Shown here: positions 3,605 to 24,869 of the stretch, piece by piece
Position numbering within the stretch: position 1 is the stretch's first letter
How the letters are laid out: every line of letters begins with the position of its first letter
NCBI RefSeq assembly: GCF_015207255.1
Contig: NZ_JADEXG010000060.1
Location: 1-32,461 of the forward strand
DNA: 32,461 bases
Source of the DNA: Vasconcelosia minhoensis LEGE 07310
Lineage (GTDB): Bacteria > Cyanobacteriota > Cyanobacteriia > Phormidesmidales > Phormidesmidaceae
Reading direction: 5' to 3'
Notes under the pieces: model-generated
The model's input: only the letters and a program-made list of their open reading frames with translations
What the model was told of the DNA's origin: nothing
Database searches by the model: none
Position numbers and translations under genes: made by a program

Positions 3605-4134
3605 ATTTGAAGGTATTAAAAACTAAATTATTCAAAACATAAATGGAACAAATTAAGATAATTATCTTTTCTTATTGTACTAGGGTGTGAAAATACTCTA
3701 AACGAAATCTAAAATTGTCACAGTTCGATTTAAGAACGATAGTTGTGGCGAAACTAAAGACAAAAGACATCGCAGGTCAAGTGTAGAGATGGATTGAAGC
3801 TATTCAACTCTAAAATTTTTGCATTTACTTTATAAATCCTTCATGTTATCTTCATGTCTAGCGATTGGCGATTTACTTTGCCATTTTGTGACTGATTTAG
3901 TTGTTTTACTGTTTTCTGATAGCTGTCAAGATTGGCACAAGTGAAACCGAAATTTGTTGTATATCTCCACACAAAGGTATTGTAGTGCGCGCAACAAACA
4001 AACAGCTAGTGAAGTTTTACCCTCTCATTTCTCTCCTTTTTTTTGAAGCTACTTCTAGCTACAATAATTTCGTTCGGTTTGATACAGAAGCTGTTTTCAC
4101 TCAGATGTCAGATGAGGATAGATTGATCGCCTAA
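3605..4134. other. AT-rich gene-poor stretch at the start of island 1
   Basis: Strikingly richer in A+T than the DNA on either side of the island. It holds a perfect 14-base palindrome AAGATAATTATCTT at 3655-3668. The only sizeable frame (from a TTG at 3901) has no ribosome binding site and no recognisable domain. It may carry the promoter of the following peptide gene; I cannot point to a definite -35/-10 pair. Confidence 0.5.
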
Positions 4135-4151
4135 CTCATCTCTGAGATGAG
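4135..4151 (+). promoter_or_regulatory. Perfect 17-base dyad upstream of the peptide gene
   Basis: CTCATCTC-T-GAGATGAG is an eight-base arm repeated in inverse order around a single T, ending 45 bases before the start codon at 4197. The placement in a leader or promoter region suggests an operator or a hairpin in the 5' leader. There is no T-run after it, so a terminator is unlikely. Confidence 0.45.
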
Positions 4152-4196
4152 CCTAGTCAATCGAACACAGAAAAAAAGAAAACGAAGGAACGTAAA

Positions 4197-4457
4197 ATGA
4201 AAAATTCAGTTTGTTTTGAACCCATCAATGTTGAAGATGAGCAGTACACTAGCGGCGGAGCTATAGGAGCTGGGAGAGGCGTCATAACTTCTTTCGCGGT
4301 TGATGCCGCTAATATAATGGGTACCGGAAGGACTAACTTTCGCACGAGTGCGTATAGAACCCTTGCATTCGCTGGGATAGGTGCAGCCTATGGGCTTGCT
4401 GGTGCCGGACCAGGTGGAGCACTTGCTGGCGCAGCTTTGAGCAGCCCGGAAAAGTAG
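4197..4457 (+). CDS. Candidate double-glycine-leader peptide precursor (class II bacteriocin/microcin-like)
   Basis: 86 residues; AAGGA lies eight bases before the ATG. The first 21 residues look like a C39-type leader: a hydrophobic/acidic pattern (PINVEDEQYTSGG) ending in Gly-Gly at positions 20-21, followed by Ala. The predicted core of 65 residues starts AIGAGRG, and its C-terminal half is a Gly/Ala-rich hydrophobic stretch with GxxxG spacing (AGIGAAYGLAGAGPGG), as in pore-forming or two-peptide bacteriocins. A C39-peptidase exporter is encoded 3.3 kb downstream on the same strand. No homologue is recognised by name; the function is inferred from architecture and context. Confidence 0.65.
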   Translation: MKNSVCFEPINVEDEQYTSGGAIGAGRGVITSFAVDAANIMGTGRTNFRTSAYRTLAFAGIGAAYGLAGAGPGGALAGAALSSPEK

Positions 4458-4466
4458 GATAGTGAT

Positions 4467-4490
4467 GCCGCTGAGTGCGAACTCGGCGGC
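4467..4490 (+). terminator. Strong hairpin with GNRA-type loop after the peptide gene
   Basis: GCCGCTGAGT pairs with ACTCGGCGGC (one G-T pair) around the tetraloop GCGA, ten bases after the peptide stop codon. A T-containing stretch (GATTCTCGTTT) follows, though not a clean T-run. It probably works as a partial terminator or as a 3' stabiliser that keeps precursor mRNA in excess over the downstream genes. Confidence 0.5.
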
Positions 4491-4726
4491 GATTCTCGTT
4501 TAACCTCTAAGGTAGTTGATGCAGATAACTGTCACAGGAAATTAGTTTCTTCCAAGTTTTAACATACATGCTCAACCAGCATATCTCTTTTTCCCTGCTC
4601 AGTTTCGTATGATCAGGGTTTAGGGAGTCGCCGTTTAATCACGTACCACCCATATCGCTCAATATTTCGAAAACGCTTGGTTTGATAGGTATTCTATTTG
4701 AACGCAAGCCCCTTAGGTCATTCTTT

Positions 4727-5068
4727 ATGTACTCATATCAGGTCTCAATGGTCGCAGCACTGTATGGGCTCTTTACTGGAGTCACTTGCGCAATAGCAGT
4801 TGTAGCTTTTCGCTCAGCCCAAAGTGGACTAGGCATTCTAAAGAACGTGCGTTTTGTAGCTTTATCAGGTCTGCTTACAGGTTTGTTTTTTGGATTAAGT
4901 GCCTATCCTATGTATGCGAGAGGTAAAATTTCAGAAGAACAGATTACAGCCTATCTAGCCGGCTTGGGATTATGCTTGTCTATAGGTTCTATTGCTTTTC
5001 AGCTACTTTACGCAGTTATCCATAAGGTTCGAGAGGTCGAATACGATGTCTCGGATCGCTCGGAATAA
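4727..5068 (+). CDS. Small four-helix membrane protein, copy 1 (candidate immunity or accessory protein)
   Basis: 113 residues from the ATG at 4727. A TTG at 4682 would extend it, but the ATG gives exactly the length of its paralogue at 6955-7296 and has AGG upstream. Four hydrophobic segments are visible (about residues 5-27, 40-60, 72-90 and a weaker one), and it ends in a charged tail after HKVR. The paralogue shares the spacing of the helices, the (L/F)FGL stretch and the terminal HKVR. Small multi-helix membrane proteins beside bacteriocin genes often give self-immunity, so that is a plausible role, but it is inference. Each copy precedes a subtilisin-like gene. Confidence 0.7.
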   Translation: MYSYQVSMVAALYGLFTGVTCAIAVVAFRSAQSGLGILKNVRFVALSGLLTGLFFGLSAYPMYARGKISEEQITAYLAGLGLCLSIGSIAFQLLYAVIHKVREVEYDVSDRSE

Positions 5069-5520
5069 TAGGCGTTAGAAAGCTAGACCCTGGATGGAGC
5101 TAACTGCTGCTCTTTATACTTAACTTAGATGCTTGGAGGCGTTTAAGATGATTAGTGAACACTTTTATGTCTGATGAAAACATAAGTATGATTTTTGTCA
5201 TGGGTGTAGGGTTTGTTAGTATTTCTGCGATAGCCACCTCGTCTGGTTTTCCTGGCTCGTCGCTTGAGTGAATCTGATAATAATAATGCTGGAAATATAG
5301 CCGAGAGGAAACCCTTCTTTCTTCACGCACATTAGTTAGCGCGCTTTTTACAACATCTGTCTCTCTTGTTTTTAAGATGACTTCTACGGAAATTAGGTAG
5401 TTAGAATCGAGAATTTATTAAGTGATTCAACTTGATATCAGAAAGCCTGGTGCTCAGACTATTTCTAATAAAAAAGCTGAATAAACTATTTCATCCTTGA
5501 TCCTTAGGAGGCTTAAGCAG
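5069..5520. other. 452-base AT-rich gap between membrane protein and subtilisin-like gene
   Basis: No convincing long gene. It includes one possible 34-codon ORF (5167-5271), listed separately. The last 15 bases carry the AGGAGG (5506-5511) that sets the start of the next gene. Promoter elements for the downstream gene may lie here but are not clear. Confidence 0.5.
5167..5271 (+). CDS. Possible 34-residue membrane peptide
   Basis: ATG-initiated; begins MSDENISMIFVMGVGFVSIS, so a short acidic N-terminus is followed by one hydrophobic segment and a Ser/Gly-rich tail. There is no good Shine-Dalgarno sequence. It lies between two genes of the cassette on the same strand, so a small leaderless peptide is conceivable, but an ORF this short in AT-rich DNA can arise by chance. 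Confidence 0.2.
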   Translation: MSDENISMIFVMGVGFVSISAIATSSGFPGSSLE

Positions 5521-6930
5521 ATGTATTTGTCAAGAGCAGAAGACAATAAGCTCCTAGACCCAAAATTTTTGAGAGGAGTGTTTGATATAACGGGAGAAGG
5601 TATTAAACTAGGTATAGTGTCTACTAGTTTTGGAGCTTCTTCTGATGTGAAAGAAAATGTCACAGATCAGAAGTTGTCAAGCGTCAAGGTTTTGAAAGAT
5701 ATACCGAGTGAGTCTGTGTATGCCACAGGCGAGGGAAGGGCTCTAGCTCAACTAGTGTACAAGGTCGCCCCAGGTAGTGAAATTCTCTTTCACACGGGAG
5801 TTAGTGGTAGTGGCAGCAGTCTAAGTGACCTAAACGAGTCTAGCTTCATCACTGCTGTACGTGAACTACAGAAAGCGGGTGCCGACATTATCTTCGATGA
5901 TATAGCAGGCTTATCGCCTCCTCTGTTCGAAGATGGAGAGGCAGTAGAGGCCATTGATGATGCAGTGGCTGATGGTATCGTCTACCTAACGGCTGCTGGT
6001 AACAACGGAACGATCACATATGAGGATGAATATCGTCCAAGCAAAGAATTTGAGTTAGATAACGTAATTTTTCAGGCTCATGATTTCGACCCAACTGATC
6101 GCGTAGATCTATTTCAAGACATCGTAGCTGGTGAGAATGGAGCACTGTTGAAGCCGTTATTATCCTGGGATTCCTCGACCAGAGAAGAAAGTTCAGAACT
6201 TTTTCTCTTCGTGTTAGACAGTCCTGAACTTCCTACCGAAAGTAATATCGTAAATATTTCGACTATACCTTCTAAAGAAACTGTCGAAGAAGCTGTCACA
6301 ACTCAGTTGTACAGCGCTGCTCCCAATCAGAAGCTTTATTATACTATTGGTCATGTAGTCAATGAGAACAAGAAACCTCCTAGCCTTATTAAGTGGGTGA
6401 GTGCCGCCAATGGGTCAGATAGAAGCGTCGAGTATGAGTATATTGATCCTCTTCTAGGGCTGCCTACCGTGTATGGTCCAGCAAATTCTGATGCCGCTAT
6501 TACTGTTGGTTCTGCCAGTGATGACGGAACTGAGTACGATAGCTTTGCCAGTCGAGGCGGTGTTCCGATTCTCTTCGATGAGATGGGTAACCCTCTACCA
6601 AAACCCATCATTAGGAGAAAACCTGACGTAATCGGCCCGGACAATGTGACGACAGCTTTCCCGGAAGGTAGCCCGTTTAATCCTTTCGTCGGCACATCAG
6701 CCGCCGTTGCGAATGTCGCTGGTGTAGCCGCCCTGATGGAACAAGCAGCGGGCGGCCCGGACGTGCTATCTCCCGAAGTCATCAAAACAATTTTGGGCGC
6801 AACCGACAAACCTGTCGAACCCGCGCCAGGCTTGCCCCCCTCAGCAGGACTCGTACAGCCAGACTTAGCCATTCTAGGCGCTAAAGTAACAGGCCAAATA
6901 GCCTCAATATTTCCAAATTCACTAGCTTAG
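5521..6930 (+). CDS. Subtilisin-fold (S8-like) protein with altered Asp and His motifs
   Basis: 469 residues from the ATG at 5521, nine bases after a perfect AGGAGG; an upstream TTG at 5497 lies before that ribosome site and is rejected. The order of S8 landmarks is kept: first strand IKLGIVSTSFG (Thr where the catalytic Asp is expected), the helix normally led by His-Gly-Thr reads TGEGRALAQLV (Glu at the His place), the oxyanion Asn is present in LTAAGNNG, and the Ser motif is FVGTSAAVANVAGVAALM (Ser kept, the usual Pro-His replaced by Ala-Asn). About 140 residues separate the oxyanion and Ser regions. No signal peptide. Subtilisin-like proteins with a DEGR-type motif in place of His-Gly-Thr occur in cyanobacteria; this one may be a pseudo-protease or use other chemistry. 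It lies inside the peptide-export cassette. Confidence 0.7.
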   Translation: MYLSRAEDNKLLDPKFLRGVFDITGEGIKLGIVSTSFGASSDVKENVTDQKLSSVKVLKDIPSESVYATGEGRALAQLVYKVAPGSEILFHTGVSGSGSSLSDLNESSFITAVRELQKAGADIIFDDIAGLSPPLFEDGEAVEAIDDAVADGIVYLTAAGNNGTITYEDEYRPSKEFELDNVIFQAHDFDPTDRVDLFQDIVAGENGALLKPLLSWDSSTREESSELFLFVLDSPELPTESNIVNISTIPSKETVEEAVTTQLYSAAPNQKLYYTIGHVVNENKKPPSLIKWVSAANGSDRSVEYEYIDPLLGLPTVYGPANSDAAITVGSASDDGTEYDSFASRGGVPILFDEMGNPLPKPIIRRKPDVIGPDNVTTAFPEGSPFNPFVGTSAAVANVAGVAALMEQAAGGPDVLSPEVIKTILGATDKPVEPAPGLPPSAGLVQPDLAILGAKVTGQIASIFPNSLA

Positions 6931-6963
6931 CTACCCAACAAACGCTCAAAAGTTATGCCGTTG
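6875..6963 (+). repeat. Direct repeat, copy A (end of subtilisin-like gene plus start of next gene)
   Basis: Matches 7655-7749 with scattered differences and a small length change. It covers the last codons of the subtilisin-like gene (GAKVTGQIASIFPNSLA), the spacer, and the first three codons of the next ORF. In copy B the same bases are codons of the C39 exporter, so the duplication reached into that gene. Confidence 0.85.
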
Positions 6964-7296
6964 ATTTCTCAATCAGATATAGTTATCTCAGTCTTGTCTG
7001 GCTTTCTAGCAGGTGCAATCTTTAGTATTTTAGACAACATGGTTATGTTCTTAGTAGAAAGGAAAACGGAAATCGGTCTAGCGGTTTTTGTACGTGGCTT
7101 TATTTTTCTGGGCTCAGCTATAGGTCTTTTATTTGGCCTGATAGGTGGGACACTAATTTCAACTGGTTTACTCCCAAAAGCTCAGATTAGCAATTTTATG
7201 TTCAGCCAGGGGGTTACATTGTCTTTGATAGGACTTTTTATTGGAATAGGAAAATTTTTCTTTCATAAAGTACGGAATCCTCAGGATTCTGATTAG
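6955..7296 (+). CDS. Small four-helix membrane protein, copy 2
   Basis: 113 residues, the same length as the protein at 4727-5068. Hydrophobic segments lie at about residues 8-30, 42-70 and 80-103, and it ends HKVRNPQDSD. It aligns along its length with copy 1, best over the FLGSAIGLLFGL and SLIGLFIGIG regions and the terminal HKVR. The first three codons lie inside the direct repeat, where the other repeat copy encodes part of the C39 exporter, so its start codon may have been recruited. Candidate immunity or accessory protein. Confidence 0.7.
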   Translation: MPLISQSDIVISVLSGFLAGAIFSILDNMVMFLVERKTEIGLAVFVRGFIFLGSAIGLLFGLIGGTLISTGLLPKAQISNFMFSQGVTLSLIGLFIGIGKFFFHKVRNPQDSD

Positions 7297-7319: not shown

Positions 7320-7716
7320 ATGACTATGCAATCCTTAATCAGTAGCGACAAGCTTATTAGGTCTGATATTACTCGACAGTTATTTTTAGTGGACAGAAGA
7401 GGCATTAGCGCTGGGTTAATTTCAACAGGGTTTAACGCTTTTGGGGGAGTCGATATTGCTGCTAAGAACTGTGACTTACCAGAAAAAAATCCGTTTGGCA
7501 GAAAATTGCCAGTCAAAATTTTCCAAGATTTAGGAGAATCAGCATTCGCAACCGACGAAGGAAGGGGCGCATCCCAATTATGCAGATTTGGACTAGCCCT
7601 CATCCTCCAGCCCTTTCTCGCCGAGGAGAAGGGGAGCCGAAACTCGGCCAGAAATAGGTGCTAAAGTAGCAGGCCAAATAGCCTCAATTTTCCCAGATTC
7701 AGATTCGCTGGCTTAA
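7320..7716 (+). pseudogene. Decayed second subtilisin-like gene (N- and C-terminal ends only)
   Basis: The first roughly 90 codons resemble the gene at 5521: RGISAGLISTGFNAFGG matches the first-strand motif (again Thr at the Asp place), and FATDEGRGASQL matches the second motif. After codon 90 comes about 70 bases of unrelated GC-rich sequence, then the last codons of a subtilisin-like gene in another frame (GAKVAGQIASIFPDSDSLA, 7657-7716). Roughly 1 kb of the middle is missing. As it stands the frame ends in TAA at 7662-7664 after 114 codons. Confidence 0.8.
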
Positions 7717-7749
7717 CTACCCGACAAATGTTCAAAAAATATGCCGTTG
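7655..7749 (+). repeat. Direct repeat, copy B
   Basis: Partner of 6875-6963. It spans the end of the decayed subtilisin-like gene, the spacer and codons 1-7 of the C39 exporter. The spacer reads CTACCCGACAAATG here and CTACCCAACAAACG in copy A, so the exporter start codon ATG corresponds to ACG in copy A. Confidence 0.85.
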
Positions 7750-9932
7750 TCAGGCAGCAAAGCGAAGAAGACTGCGGCGCTGCTTGTCTGGCCACAATTG
7801 CCAAACACTACGGACGCCACCTTTCGCTGACCCGCAGCCGCGAAGCCGTCGGCACTGGCCAGCTGGGCACAACCCTCTTAGGCATCCGGCGTGGTGCCGA
7901 AGCGCTAGGCTTCCAGGCTCAATCTGGTAAAGTCACTCCCGAAGTATTCGATAATCTGTCTCAGATAGCGCTGCCTGCTATTATTCACTGGCGTGGCTAT
8001 CACTGGGTTGTTCTCTATGGCAAAAAGGGTCGCAAATATGTCATTGCCGACCCAGCCATGGGACTTCTATATCTCCACAAAGCCGAGTTAATAGAAAGTT
8101 GGGGAGATGGCATTACGCTACTGATAGAACCTAGCGGAGAAATCTTTGAAGAACAGGAAGAAGAGCCGAAAAAAGGGATAGGTCGATACTTCAAGCAAGC
8201 ACTGAACTATCGCACAACTGTTTTTCAGGCACTGCTCTACGCCCAGGTAATTGGCTTACTAGGACTCATCTACCCATTCTTTATTCAAATACTCACCGAC
8301 GACGTTCTTATTCGAGGAGACGCCCAGCTCCTCCGCACAGTTGCTCTTGGCGTCATGGCACTCCTCGCTGTCGATAGCGTCCTCAAGCTGATCGAATATA
8401 CTTTAGTCACCCACTTTGGTCAACAGCTTCAACTTCAGCTATCGCTAGAATTCGGCAACAAGCTTCTGCGCCTCCCCCTCGCTTACTACGAATCTCGTCG
8501 CAGCGGCGAAGTGCTCAGCCGGCTGGAAGATATTACTCGAATCAATGGCCTCGTTTCCAGCAGTATCATCCAGTTCCCTACTAAGCTGTCCATCGGCCTT
8601 GTCTCATTCGCATTCATGCTCGCCTATAGCCGCTCGCTCACCCTATTTTCGGTAGGTCTCTCGGTGATGATGACTCTTGCGGCCCTAATCTTCCTCCCTG
8701 CGCTCAACCAGCGAACCCGGAGGCTCCTAGCCTTAGATGCTGACAATCAGGGCATCCTGGTCGAAAACTTCAAAGGAGCCATGACCTTTAAATCAACAAC
8801 GGCAGAACCTCAGCTTTGGGCAGAGTTAGAAGCCCGCTTTGGCCGTGTCGCACTTCAGGAGTTTTGGCTCGCTCGACTAGGCATTGCCAACACCGTTTTT
8901 TCAGGCTTAATTTCCGGTGTAGGCGGTATCGCCCTGCTATGGTTCGGCAGCTCCCTCGTGATTTCTCAAGCGCTAACCATCGGCCAGCTTCTAGCCTTCA
9001 ACGCCATGAACGCGAATTTCATTGGGCTCATCGGTTTCATCGTCGGCTTTGCCGATGAATTCGCTAAAGTAAAAGCCTCGGCAGAACGCTTTGGTGAAGT
9101 CATGGGAGTGACTAACGAAATCCTAGATGACGTTCACAAGCCACAAGTCCAACTGCCCGCCGACGGGGATATTCAATGCACTCACCTCAACTTCTTTTAT
9201 GCAGGCCGAGTCGAGCTACTCAAAGACTTTTCTCTCACTATCCACGGCGGCGAAGTCACTGCCTTGATTGGTCGCTCAGGCTGTGGCAAAAGTACCCTCG
9301 TAAAAGTTATCGCTGGACTGCACAGCGCCCAGTCTGGAAATGTTCGCATCGGCAGCTACAACCAGTCAGATCTTTCCCTCAGCTGTCTGCGCGCTCAAAT
9401 TGGCTTAGTTCCTCAAGAAACTCATTTTTGGAGCCGCTCCATCCTCGAAAACTTTCTGCTGGGTGCACCCAATATCTCATTCGAGCAGATCGTGGCCGCC
9501 TGCAAAGTTGCCGAAGCCGATGAGTTTATTAGCCGTTTACCCAATAAGTATCAAACCGTCCTTGGCGAATTCGGCTCTAACCTCTCTGGCGGACAACGGC
9601 AACGGCTAGCGATTGCCCGCGCGATCTCCACCCATCCACCCATCCTCATTCTCGATGAAGCCACAGCCGGACTCGATCCCATCAGCGAAACCCAGCTCTT
9701 ACATCAGCTCTTAACCCATCGTCAGGGCAAAACAACCCTTCTCATTAGCCACCGGCCCAGCGTCGTTGAGCTAGCTGACAGAATTGTTTTGCTAAAGCAG
9801 GGACAGCTTCAGCTACAGGGCAAGCTCAGCGAACTCAGAGGCAAACCCGGCGACCATCAGCTTTTCCTGAATAAAACTCGCACTCAAGGAAACTCCGCAA
9901 GCTCGCGCTATGTTCAACCCTCACCCATCTAA
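7728..9932 (+). CDS. C39-peptidase ABC exporter (bacteriocin/double-glycine peptide maturation and export)
   Basis: 734 residues with three domains in order. The N-terminal C39 peptidase has Cys16 in EEDCGAACLATIAKHYG, His92 in YHWVVLYG and Asp108 in IADPAMG, a complete catalytic set. Transmembrane helices follow from about residue 160 to 430. The C-terminal ATPase has Walker A GRSGCGKST (about 514-522), signature LSGGQRQR (about 619) and Walker B ILILDEAT (about 638). Such proteins cut peptides after Gly-Gly and pump the core across the inner membrane, working with a HlyD adaptor. The adaptor gene overlaps its 3' end by 23 bases. It appears intact and is the natural partner of the precursor at 4197. 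Confidence 0.93.
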   Translation: MFKKYAVVRQQSEEDCGAACLATIAKHYGRHLSLTRSREAVGTGQLGTTLLGIRRGAEALGFQAQSGKVTPEVFDNLSQIALPAIIHWRGYHWVVLYGKKGRKYVIADPAMGLLYLHKAELIESWGDGITLLIEPSGEIFEEQEEEPKKGIGRYFKQALNYRTTVFQALLYAQVIGLLGLIYPFFIQILTDDVLIRGDAQLLRTVALGVMALLAVDSVLKLIEYTLVTHFGQQLQLQLSLEFGNKLLRLPLAYYESRRSGEVLSRLEDITRINGLVSSSIIQFPTKLSIGLVSFAFMLAYSRSLTLFSVGLSVMMTLAALIFLPALNQRTRRLLALDADNQGILVENFKGAMTFKSTTAEPQLWAELEARFGRVALQEFWLARLGIANTVFSGLISGVGGIALLWFGSSLVISQALTIGQLLAFNAMNANFIGLIGFIVGFADEFAKVKASAERFGEVMGVTNEILDDVHKPQVQLPADGDIQCTHLNFFYAGRVELLKDFSLTIHGGEVTALIGRSGCGKSTLVKVIAGLHSAQSGNVRIGSYNQSDLSLSCLRAQIGLVPQETHFWSRSILENFLLGAPNISFEQIVAACKVAEADEFISRLPNKYQTVLGEFGSNLSGGQRQRLAIARAISTHPPILILDEATAGLDPISETQLLHQLLTHRQGKTTLLISHRPSVVELADRIVLLKQGQLQLQGKLSELRGKPGDHQLFLNKTRTQGNSASSRYVQPSPI

Positions 9933-10911
9933 AAAGCTTCCTTCAATTCAAGACATCACAGCCCGTCGCGCGCTTCCTCCTATTAGCCCGTGGGTCTTAG
10001 GTGGAGGTTGGTTTATGGTCATGGTATTAGCTATTTCCGCCAGCTTGACCACGGTTGTAAAATACAAGACCATTGTCCGAGCTCCTATGACTATCCGGCC
10101 AGACGGCGAACTGAGACTGGTACAGTCACCCGTAGAAGGCAGCATTGTCAGCATAGCTGTTCAAGAAAATCAACAAGTCAGTAAAGGACAAACTATTGCA
10201 ACTCTAGATAGCTCCAAACTCAGGACCCAAAAAGAGCAGATCGAAGAAAGCATTTCCGAAACTCGAAAACAACTAGCGCAAATCAACGGCCAAATCGCCT
10301 TACTTGCCGATCAAATTGCGACAGAGAAAGCGCGAGTTAAGACGACTACCGCCATGGCAGAAGCAGAGCTGGCAGGCAGCCAGAGAAGCTACAGCAATTT
10401 GCAAGTAGCCACTTCAGCAGAAGTCAGAGAAGCCCAAGCTAATCTTCAGCTAGCTGAAGAAGAACTGATGAGCTATCAGCAGCTAGTAGAGCAGGGAGCG
10501 ATCGCTCAGCTAGAGCTAGCCCAAAAGCAAGCCGTTGTAGAATCAGCCAGCGCTCAGCTAGATAAGCTGACAGCAGCCCTAAATCCAACGAACGCCGACG
10601 TTACGGTCGCTCAAGAAAAAATTGCTCAAACCCGCACTCAAGGGACCGTTGCTGTTTCTCAGCTTATGCAAACGCAGTCCCAGCTTATGCAGCAGCGCTC
10701 GGAAATGAATGAAACTTTGAATAGTAACACTCATGAACTTGAACAGGTTACAAGAGACCTTATGCGCACAGAACTAAAAGCACCAATCGCTGGAACCATT
10801 CAGGCATTGAGTTTGCGTAACACCAACCAAGTTATTCAACCTGGCGAAACGGTTGCTAAAATTTTTCCAGACGGTGCTGAGCTGAAGGTACGGGCACTCG
10901 TACCAGGGTAA
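9910..10911 (+). pseudogene. HlyD-family periplasmic adaptor, truncated by insertion (N-terminal 333 residues)
   Basis: Residues 28-52 form the single membrane anchor. The first lipoyl half (GSIVSIAVQENQQVSKGQ) is at about 79-96, a long Gln/Glu/Ala-rich coiled coil runs from about 105 to 275, and the second lipoyl half is near 290-325 (LKAPIAGTIQALSLRNTNQV). This is the architecture of adaptors that bridge an ABC exporter to an outer-membrane channel. The frame ends in a TAA contributed by the left end of a 177-bp element inserted at 10903; the last roughly 110 residues continue after it. It overlaps the exporter gene by 23 bases, so translation was coupled. Without its C-terminal domain the adaptor is probably non-functional. 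Confidence 0.85.
10895..10902. repeat. Target-site duplication, left copy (CACTCGTA)
   Basis: Eight bases repeated at 11080-11087 on the other side of the miniature element. In the uninterrupted homologous HlyD copy near 25437 there is only one such site (CACTCGTG), which confirms a duplication on insertion. Confidence 0.85.
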
Positions 10912-11079
10912 GCGCAAGAATCAATAAAGACTACCTTATTGAGAAAAATGACTACTCCTATGTCAACAGGGCAAAGCTATTGAGAACGGCAAGTACGAAA
11001 AAATGGGGCTTCTAGTCACTTCCGCATCGCCCGAAAGCCAATGCACACTTTGGATACGATTTTCTTGCGCTTACCCTGG
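10903..11079 (+). mobile_element. 177-bp miniature inverted-repeat element (MITE-like), copy 1
   Basis: Bounded by perfect 18-base inverted repeats CCAGGGTAAGCGCAAGAA and its complement, flanked by an eight-base target duplication. It encodes no transposase, so it would have moved in trans. A second copy of the same length, about nine tenths identical and in the opposite orientation, lies at 24693-24869. The TAA in the left terminal repeat stops the HlyD frame. Parts of the interior read as open frame, so it may descend from a coding fragment. Confidence 0.9.
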
Positions 11080-11087
11080 CACTCGTA

Positions 11088-11414
11088 CCTACCGAAGAAA
11101 TCAGCAAAATAGGCGTGGATCAGCCTGTCAAATTGCGAATTTCGACCTGTCCATTCTCTCAGTTTGGTACATTGCCCGGCGTTGTTCGCACCATCTCACC
11201 CGACGCTACCTCTACACCAGAGAATGAAAATAGCGGTCAAGTAGCAGATGCTTTTTATAACGTTATGATTGAACCTCAAAGGTTAGCTTTGAAAGCAGGC
11301 GACAAAGAATGTCCTATTCAGTCAGGCATAAAAGGACGTGCCGAGATTATTTCCCGTGAAGAAACGATCTTCGATTTCATACTACGCAAAACCAGTTTGA
11401 TAATAAGCCCTTGA
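11088..11414 (+). pseudogene. HlyD adaptor, C-terminal remnant after the insertion
   Basis: Continues the interrupted adaptor: PTEEISKIGVDQPVKLR, then a beta-barrel-like stretch with ISTCPFSQFGTLPGVV, a FYNVMIEPQR segment and an RAEIISREETIFDFILRK tail, which is the membrane-proximal end of HlyD-type adaptors. It has no good start of its own. It matches 25445-25770 closely, so the joined product would be about 440 residues, a normal family length. Confidence 0.85.
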
Positions 11415-13213: not shown

Positions 13214-14242
13214 CTAATCCACCGCGCTCGCATCGATCCACTGCGGCTCGGGTACGGCCGTATCGCACTGCACGATAGTGGTCTCATACTCGACCGGGGG
13301 CACCGCCGGGCTGCGGCCACTGGGGGACGGACGGCTGGGGGGAGCAGGGCGAGTCCGTCGCTGGGGCGTGAGCTGGCAGGATTTTTCTAGATAGTACCCA
13401 TTTTCACGCGCGACTGGCCCCCGCCAGTAGGCCCGAAAATTGAGCCGATAGCCGCCTGCAGCCCCGATCGGCGGCGGCGCGCCGAGTTTCCAGAACAGGC
13501 TCTCTTCAGGCGCATAGAGCGCAGCGCGCGGAATCTCGCGGGCAATATCGGCGACCTGCGCTTCACTATTCAGCAGCCAGCGCTCGGTGCGCGGCCAGGG
13601 AATGCCGTTGAGCTGCTGCTCCAGGGCATCGGCCGCGCTCTCGAGCAGCAGCACTCCCTGGGGAATCCGCTCAAAGTCGCTAGAGAAATCGTAGACAAAG
13701 GCGCTGCGGTCAAAATCATTGACCAGCAGGCTGGGATAGCGGCCAAACCACGACTGAACCTGAAAGTAAAACAGAATCCAGCTGGTGAGCAGCAGATTCA
13801 GCAGTAGAATCAGCACCAGCTCCTGCTGGACCTCTGGCTTCGGTCGCTTGAATTCCAAATCCCAGCGAAAAAAGCTCGGCAAAGCCCGAATTGCGGTCGA
13901 GATTAGCGGCCAGGCGGCCAGCGCCCAGCGTAGCCGCTCCGGCGGCCAGGGGTTAAACAGGAACAGGCACAGCACCGCGCCGGTAATCCAGGCGCTAATG
14001 GAAAAGCCAGCAACCCGCACCGGGTTTCGCCACAGCGCCCACCAGATTGCTGCGGTTAGAGAAATCCAGCTACAGGTGCTGAGGATATTGACCGTCAGTG
14101 TCGCCGCGTCGAGCACTTCAGCCAGGATAGCCATCAGCCAGGAGAAAATGCTCAGCAGCAGCAGCGTCTGCCAGGCAAAATACTGCGTCGGCGTGATTAA
14201 AATTCGGATTCGGTCGAGGGAATCGCGAAAGGCTTCGATCAT
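13214..14242 (-). CDS. fraD: FraD, septal-junction membrane protein
   Basis: About 342 residues from an ATG that shares the TGATG of the fraC stop, with GGAG just upstream; a GTG nine bases earlier is the alternative. Five hydrophobic helices fill the first 175 residues. A periplasmic-type C-terminal part follows, with a predicted amphipathic helix (LLESAADALEQQLNG) and a Pro/Arg-rich tail (about residues 300-325). Anabaena FraD has five helices and a large extracytoplasmic part, sits at the septa between cells and is needed for septal junctions and cell-to-cell exchange. The length and the position between fraC and fraE agree. Confidence 0.88.
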   Translation of the reverse strand: MIEAFRDSLDRIRILITPTQYFAWQTLLLLSIFSWLMAILAEVLDAATLTVNILSTCSWISLTAAIWWALWRNPVRVAGFSISAWITGAVLCLFLFNPWPPERLRWALAAWPLISTAIRALPSFFRWDLEFKRPKPEVQQELVLILLLNLLLTSWILFYFQVQSWFGRYPSLLVNDFDRSAFVYDFSSDFERIPQGVLLLESAADALEQQLNGIPWPRTERWLLNSEAQVADIAREIPRAALYAPEESLFWKLGAPPPIGAAGGYRLNFRAYWRGPVARENGYYLEKSCQLTPQRRTRPAPPSRPSPSGRSPAVPPVEYETTIVQCDTAVPEPQWIDASAVD

Positions 14243-14808
14243 CAGCTCCACTCCCTGGCGAACGTGCGCAGCAGCAGCAGCAGCAGCAGGGCCGAAAAGC
14301 TCAGCGCATTGGCCTGGAGGACGGCATTGGAAAAGCGGCCCATCGCCTGCTGCTGGTCGGTATTGCCGCTTCTGGCCCGGGCGTAGCGTTGGATCCGGGA
14401 CAGCCGCTCGGGCTGATTGGGAATCGTCCAGGTACCGGCCGTACGCATCATCAGCTCCAGCCCCTTGAGCTTGATTAGCAGGGTGACAAAAAAGGCGGTC
14501 AGCCCGCTGATCAGTACGATTGCCCCGACCCGAGTGGTCCAGCTGTTGAAGGTCAGCCGATCGAATAGCACATAGCTGATAATCTGCGCCTCTAGGGCAG
14601 GCGGGGCCAGCGGCTCTAGCAGCAAAAAGGCGAACCAGCCCACCACCGTCGCCGCCAGGTTAATCACGGTGGCATACTGCACGCTGTCTTTGAACCCCAG
14701 GTACAGTCGCTGCCGCAGCAGGCCCGCTTCGAGCGCGATCGCGACCAGCAAAAACAGGCCCTGAAAGACAATGGCCTTGAGTGGGAAGATGGGTTCAAGC
14801 TCTCCCAT
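14242..14808 (-). CDS. fraC: FraC, filament integrity protein
   Basis: 188 residues with three hydrophobic helices (about 8-28, 45-65, 92-112) and a last hydrophobic stretch near the C-terminus (SFSALLLLLLLRTFAREW). It matches the size and layout of Anabaena FraC, a septum-located protein that with FraD keeps filaments together and supports molecular exchange between cells. First gene of the run fraC-fraD-fraE; its stop overlaps the fraD start. The fraCDE set is strong evidence that the host forms filaments. Confidence 0.85.
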   Translation of the reverse strand: MGELEPIFPLKAIVFQGLFLLVAIALEAGLLRQRLYLGFKDSVQYATVINLAATVVGWFAFLLLEPLAPPALEAQIISYVLFDRLTFNSWTTRVGAIVLISGLTAFFVTLLIKLKGLELMMRTAGTWTIPNQPERLSRIQRYARARSGNTDQQQAMGRFSNAVLQANALSFSALLLLLLLRTFAREWS

Positions 14809-16201
<1,393 letters not shown>

Positions 16202-24692: not shown

Positions 24693-24869
24693 CCAGGGTA
24701 AGCGCAAGAAAATCGTATCCAAAGTATGCATTGGCTTTTGGGCGCTGCAGACGTGGCTAGAAGCCCCAGTTTTTCGTACTCGCCTTTCTCAATAGCTTTA
24801 CCCTGTTGACATAGGCGCGGCCATTTTTCTCAATAAGGCAGTCTTTATTGATTCTTGCGCTTACCCTGG
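24693..24869 (-). mobile_element. 177-bp miniature inverted-repeat element, copy 2
   Basis: Same length and same perfect 18-base terminal repeats as copy 1 at 10903-11079, in the opposite orientation and about one base in ten different. No target duplication is seen: the left flank belongs to a Tn3-type fragment and the right flank to an ISAs1-type fragment, so the site was rearranged after or during insertion. Confidence 0.9.

Follow-up and report, generated by a model that had tools for sequence, protein, structure and literature searches.

The gene at 5521-6930 of Vasconcelosia minhoensis LEGE 07310 is best read, with a probability of roughly 0.45, as encoding a Glu-type peptidase derivative of subtilisin fold that is weakened or dead. 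The window analysed here is the whole stretch of DNA of 32,461 nt that carries the gene; its features are collected in Table 1. The gene would represent a fast-diverging, RTX-less offshoot of a bacterial subtilisin-fold family (Glu-type family) whose layout seemingly combines Glu at the His place, a kept oxyanion Asn and nucleophile Ser, and, at the strict Asp place, a Ser with an Asp after it. Judging from the sequences, catalysis in the family most likely relies on a Ser-Glu pair in which Glu acts as general base, and the partner of Glu would be one of the conserved Asp35, Asp70, Asp126 or Asp127. Since Asp35 and Asp70 are lost in the 5521-6930 protein, its peptidase is most likely weak or dead. 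The gene has probably been recruited to an island for the export of a double-glycine peptide, and its likeliest remaining role would be the binding of a peptide.

Table 1. Positions of the gene, its active-site codons and the neighbouring features in the window.
Feature	Position	Strand	Basis
86-aa ORF, leader-like VEDEQYTSGG, probable precursor peptide	4197..4457	+	Double-glycine motif by eye
Ribosome-binding site AGGAGG	5506..5511	+	Read from sequence
Glu-type subtilisin-fold gene, 469 aa	5521..6930	+	PF00082, predicted model, VIA-align
Ser34, strict Asp32 place by gap-free count	5620..5622	+	Ser in 77/77 scan relatives
Thr35 in IVSTSF	5623..5625	+	Asp in 69/77 scan relatives
Gly70 and Glu71 (base place; TGEGRALAQ); Glu71 codon 5731-5733	5728..5733	+	Place 70 Asp in 77/77 scan relatives, motif column
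Asp126-Asp127	5896..5901	+	Asp127 aligned with Ser125 of subtilases
Asn161, oxyanion place, in AAGNNG	6001..6003	+	Family alignments
Thr392-Ser393, nucleophile, in GTSAAVANVAG; Ser393 codon 6697-6699	6694..6699	+	Family alignments
Truncated paralogue (LISTGF, TDEGRGASQ), runs into genome-wide repeat	7320..7664	+	Pairwise match
Surviving 3' end of paralogue	7655..7718	+	Match to 3' end of the 5521-6930 gene
C39-peptidase ABC exporter, 734 aa	7728..9932	+	PF03412 (113.2 bits), PF00664, PF00005
HlyD adaptor gene, interrupted	9910..11411	+	HlyD matches in the Pfam scan; two tblastn pieces versus four related HlyD proteins
173-bp mobile element inside HlyD	10905..11077	+	16-bp inverted ends, 12-bp direct repeat outside

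Predicted fold of the gene product

The open frame starts with ATG at 5521, while the mechanical ORF listing starts at TTG 5497. A Pfam scan of the protein returned PF00082 (Peptidase_S8) with 46.1 bits at a cut-off of 21.8. At E values up to 1 this was the sole domain found in the ORF, with no PF09286 prodomain; likewise the protein shows no RTX tail (Pfam) and no long N-terminal region. The AlphaFold2 model (78 sequences) has a mean pLDDT of 89.3 and a pTM of 0.91. It places a strand at 29-34, a helix from 71, a strand at 154-158 and a helix from 392. VIA-align superposes the model on subtilisin BPN' chains with Z about 30 and 260 of 275 residues aligned; no sedolisin is among the 50 VIA-align matches listed, which excludes nothing. 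In Foldseek the top ranks are taken by CspB, CspA and CspC (E 2.5e-17 to 8.8e-14), with subtilisins next. The subtilisin fold is thus predicted confidently.

Assignment of the active-site residues

The original prediction had read Thr in IVSTSF, Glu in TGEGRALAQ, Asn in AAGNNG and Ser in GTSAAVANVAG, and all four residues are present as read. The distance from Glu71 to the Ala of an AP motif is 12 residues in 72 of 78 family rows, and the catalytic Glu shows the same offset in 7 of 9 sedolisin-type sequences, AP being absent at the searched offset in the other six rows and two S53 sequences. Because of this match Glu71 was retained as the base place, supported by the helix start at 71 in the model, and the claim of a Glu at the His place is supported. 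Other alignments shifted the place: an S53 profile alignment introduces a gap and displaces the Glu by two residues, and one MAFFT mode including the genome's own canonical subtilase (L150) placed Arg73 under His64.

The Asp place had been assigned to Thr. In a gap-free count from the conserved Gly25, with L150 as the sole canonical sequence, Ser34 is the residue that corresponds to the Asp of L150 (offset 9), and Thr35 comes next. The 5521-6930 protein has indeed no Asp at either 34 or 35, but Thr probably occupies the neighbouring residue rather than the place itself. The count likewise speaks against Asp35 of the relatives as the strict Asp32 place, which it merely adjoins. Hence the strict Asp32 place of the family is probably Ser34 with Asp35 beside it, and as Ser34 is invariant the whole Glu-type family may lack the subtilase acid. 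The case named as refuting the initial reading, a genuine Asp or His at another active-site position, was not seen in the alignments.

The PMC11593635 table, as far as excerpted, gives LDTG, HG, NLS, ASGN and TS for subtilases and Ile33-Thr34, Glu80-WDL-Asp84, NVS, SSGD and TS for sedolisin. Four residues after the Glu the 5521-6930 protein carries Leu75, and 77 of 77 scan relatives carry Met (a motif column). Around the Ser the similarity is stronger to two S8 sequences (E 2.8e-10) than to nine of S53 (8.6e-5). Comparison of an N-terminal profile with solved structures gave weak matches only (best E 0.0034), with alignments ending short of the Asp and His places.

A widespread family with Glu at the His place

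A profile scan of genome contigs confirmed at least 516 loci, of which 80 were kept. Alignment A2 holds 77 of them (the scan relatives), L081 and L104 having been dropped for an internal stop and L106 for its length. They belong mostly to Bacteroidota, Cyanobacteriota and Pseudomonadota, the rest to Planctomycetota and others. The family motif order is SDS[FY]...DEGRAM...GN...GTSAAAP. Glu at place 71, Asn at 161 and Ser at 393 are found in 77 of 77 scan relatives each, as are Ser at 34 and Asp at 70. The columns covered by DEGR[AG]M and I[VF]DD are in part a product of selection, as both motifs belong to the scan patterns. Free of such motif-selection bias, S-D-S (with Asp35) and E-G-R are found in 19 of 19 cyanobacterial relatives that have the N-terminal half and were obtained by protein or profile search (L025-L030, L175-L183 and L185-L188; L184, the 5521-6930 gene itself, and L189, the other half of the L188 locus, stand outside this set). 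Ser34, Glu71, Asp126, Asn161 and Ser393 are invariant in the scan relatives together with 18 added rows, one row being masked at 393.

The family alignment that had been proposed as a check on conservation of the Glu hence returns it in all 77 scan and all 19 unbiased relatives. Glu is accordingly not among the changes of this lineage. By these alignments it is the norm of a widespread bacterial family, and Asp35 and Asp70 are what this lineage itself has lost.

Place 35 holds Asp in 69 scan relatives, Asn in six, Val in one and Thr in one, corresponding to five changes on the tree. All eight Asp35-less relatives retain Glu, Asn, Ser and Asp-Asp, so that Asp35 may be dispensable; on the alignments it is typical of the family rather than strictly defining. 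In local alignments place 70 reads Gly in L038 and L059, and place 35 reads Thr in L093; the multiple alignment has Asp at all three.

Single members deserve mention in their own right. The Asn-bearing sequences are six Bacteroidota members (L064, L074, L082, L087, L097 and L103), in which Glu, Asn and Ser are kept. L183, at the same place as L012, has Asn at place 127, which rejects Asp127 as a universal acid partner, and reads DEGRAL for DEGRAM like the 5521-6930 protein. A Chroococcidiopsis plasmid carries a truncated family gene annotated as hypothetical protein (L023:8563-9297).

Searches with the 5521-6930 protein gave matches in 14 of 386 phylum genomes, four of the 14 in the C-terminal stretch only, and in 7 of 63 genomes of its taxonomic family; the 78-row profile, at E up to 1e-20, gave 10 of the 386 (own genome included in each count). 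A plasmid search added two further relatives (L023, L024) and one S8 match (H2). The single-protein genome scan found no relative, and the phage search gave no match. In a literature search of incomplete coverage no paper was recognised as describing the Glu-type family. Such sequences are presumably those that CDD labels S53-like (cd05562), for which a literature search found no paper either. We know of no activity for any family member.

Divergence of the 5521-6930 protein

The tree groups the protein with L031-L036 at a support of 100, the nearest being two Elainella sequences. The grouping persists without columns 34-36 and has a support of 99 with 18 more relatives added. Its end branch is the longest of the tree (1.57 versus a median of 0.41), which makes the exact place unsure. 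From these comparisons the protein nevertheless descends from the Glu-type family by common ancestry.

Outside the motif columns, 30 positions show at least 95% conservation among the relatives; the protein departs at five of them, whereas relatives average 0.61 departures and none exceeds three. Likewise, it departs at 33 of the 78 columns invariant in 15 A1 relatives (7 of them gaps); single A1 relatives, each compared with the other 14, show 0 to 11 departures. Pro397 is among the residues lost. Many family members have 100-300 residues of open frame before the core. In L031, L032 and L034-L036 the frame starts 0-51 residues before it, like some other members. RTX repeats are detected by Pfam in L031-L034 and as a motif in L035 and L036; the 5521-6930 gene has none.

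Within the same clade a Hyella patelloides ORF (L033:239-3952) encodes a degenerate family domain and then an intact one, each of them followed by RTX repeats. In the degenerate domain Glu is replaced by Phe, Asn by Asp and Ser by Leu. It is a precedent for degenerate copies in the L031-L036 clade.

The paralogue and the peptide-export island

The truncated paralogue, previously reported with LISTGF and TDEGRGASQ, is confirmed with 34% identity to the 5521-6930 protein over 80 aa (pairwise E=4e-8). A short dispersed repeat lies at its break (7596-7655; 25 genome matches, own included). The 3' end of the 5521-6930 gene recurs at 7655-7749 with 82-89% identity and extends into the first codons of the exporter, which points to a duplication beside the exporter. 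The Thr common to both proteins was either inherited or copied between the two. The proposal that both changes are inherited can thus be upheld for the Thr in this form, but not for the Glu, which is no change of this lineage.

The exporter frame is intact and its protein begins with the C39 domain, i.e. it is of the short type. The element inside HlyD has eight other near-full copies in the genome, one of them 100% identical; one copy lies in the window at 24693-24867 on the minus strand. With HlyD cut by a mobile element and the paralogue truncated, the island is decaying. The S8-like gene, the paralogue, the peptide gene and two hydrophobic ORFs have a GC3 of 0.32-0.40. Values are 0.39-0.55 for exporter and HlyD but 0.63-0.79 for the nine genes compared on the flanks, a low-GC3 stretch as expected of an acquired island.

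The two small hydrophobic ORFs flank the gene upstream (4682-5068) and downstream (6955-7296). Neither has a clear Pfam match; as a guess they are possibly immunity-like. No relationship between the two was detected (BLASTP E=2.0), and a reading as duplicates was rejected. The 86-aa ORF has no convincing relative, weak-E matches occurring in 3 of 373 and 10 of 60 genomes, own included, so any peptide partner is a guess.

We fetched 16 loci with an orthologous exporter from 14 genomes, some on short contigs. Double-glycine leaders, judged by eye, lie near the exporter at 9 of them, and the stretches fetched contain no Glu-type family member. One orthologous C39 exporter is surrounded by numerous small ORFs that have double-glycine leaders (L140, G443; 3981-6342 and 13595-16123). 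Conversely, tblastn near the 80 kept family loci (46 of at least 15 kb) gave no match covering the C39 part.

Weak, active or functionless

Taken together, the losses of Asp35 and Asp70, the further departures and the damaged neighbourhood favour a weak or dead peptidase as the likeliest reading. The Thr shared with the paralogue and the missing RTX tail, unlike the nearest clade, also speak for it. The two options offered originally divide accordingly: a Glu-dependent Ser peptidase seems to fit the family, while a pseudo-protease fits the 5521-6930 protein better, given its missing Asp35 and Asp70 and a divergence greater than that of any other row. Against a weak or dead protein stands that Ser34, Glu71, Asp126, Asp127, Asn161 and Ser393 are all kept, and that Asp35, by the gap-free count, would lie beside and not at the Asp32 place. 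Conservation is also slightly more frequent at the active-site columns than elsewhere (p=0.057, 0.028, 0.20 and 0.18), values that are not enough to claim selection to keep the active site. Placing Ser34 at the Asp32 place lowers the likelihood of a weak or dead protein and raises that of a still active Ser-Glu peptidase, in which Glu71 would be aided by the neighbouring Asp126/Asp127 or by no acid at all. We regard such an active enzyme as rather unlikely, though the strongest competitor. It agrees with the invariance of Ser34, Glu71, Asp126, Asn161 and Ser393 and with the loss of Asp35 in relatives that keep Glu and Ser. The excerpted table of PMC11593635 also has Ile33-Thr34 of sedolisin at the Asp32 place, and Asp127 aligns with subtilase Ser125, whose carbonyl contacts the base (PMC11593635, same excerpt). 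The Asn of L183 at place 127, the lack of an acid at Glu+4, the fast divergence and the lost Pro397 argue against it, and to our knowledge no family member has a known activity that would back it. A bolder version, which we hold to be doubtful, sees in the DEGRAM family a third subtilisin-fold layout with a sedolisin-place Glu, Ser for the subtilase Asp, an Asn oxyanion residue and the acid from Asp126/Asp127 or none; the 5521-6930 protein would then be a natural minimal version, active without Asp35 and Asp70. The family combines Glu with the oxyanion Asn of subtilisin, probably with neither acid at its usual place. If it is active, it would be a natural intermediate that makes the origin of sedolisins testable, and its Asp35-less members, the 5521-6930 protein included, would reveal whether the Glu depends on an acid and on which one.

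The broken paralogue and HlyD, the low GC3 of the island and the longest branch of the tree would also suit a functionless relic in a decaying acquired island. The 469-aa open frame, the good ribosome-binding site, the confident model and the intact exporter frame make this unlikely. A maturation protease cleaving the neighbouring precursor peptide is by far the least probable: the gene does sit between precursor and exporter genes, and group VI bacteriocin clusters of cyanobacteria include an S8-domain protein (PMC3140520, excerpt). Yet Asp and His are both absent, double-glycine leaders are cleaved by the C39 domain itself, and neither the 16 exporter loci nor the 80 kept family loci give conserved-context support for processing of the peptide by this protein. 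We thus prefer a weakened or dead derivative.

Comparison with known systems

With subtilases (MEROPS S8, PF00082) the 5521-6930 protein has in common the fold, the motif order, the nucleophile Ser (Ser393) and the oxyanion Asn (Asn161). It differs by having neither a catalytic Asp on strand 1 (Ser34, Thr35) nor a catalytic His, with Ser at the strict Asp place and Glu71 at the His place, and by an Asn-Ser spacing about 165 residues longer (161 to 393 versus 155 to 221). Sedolisins (MEROPS S53) share the Glu base, equally spaced from the AP motif, and a hydroxyl residue at the Asp32 place, Thr34 in the excerpted sedolisin data and Ser34 here. They differ by an acid at Glu+4, by Asp and not Asn at the oxyanion place and by PF09286, of which the LEGE 07310 genome has no match. 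A sedolisin-like layout is therefore rejected, membership being ruled out by Glu+4 (Leu75) and the oxyanion residue (Asn). As far as the sequences tell, the Glu-type family fits neither layout.

The island shares C39 exporter and HlyD, and putatively a double-glycine peptide, with the cyanobacterial bacteriocin clusters described in the excerpted PMC3140520; here, in contrast, HlyD is broken and the S8-like protein belongs to the Glu type. Group VI clusters of that source have a long-type exporter and SurA, whereas the exporter here is of the short type (734 aa, C39 first). None of the other loci examined shows a Glu-type protein linked to a C39 exporter.

The Csp pseudoproteases (CspA, CspC), among the top Foldseek matches to the model, share the subtilisin fold and reportedly have a degenerate catalytic set (PMC6636752 and PMC12880746). 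The Foldseek match to CspB has an E of 2.5e-17, and the sequence matches are weak. The Csp proteins act in spore germination of clostridia and differ in sequence and context. The nearest clade among the tree rows are the RTX-tailed relatives of Elainella/Oculatellaceae (L031-L036, 37-39% identity), in which, unlike in the 5521-6930 protein, Asp35, Asp70 and RTX repeats are all present.
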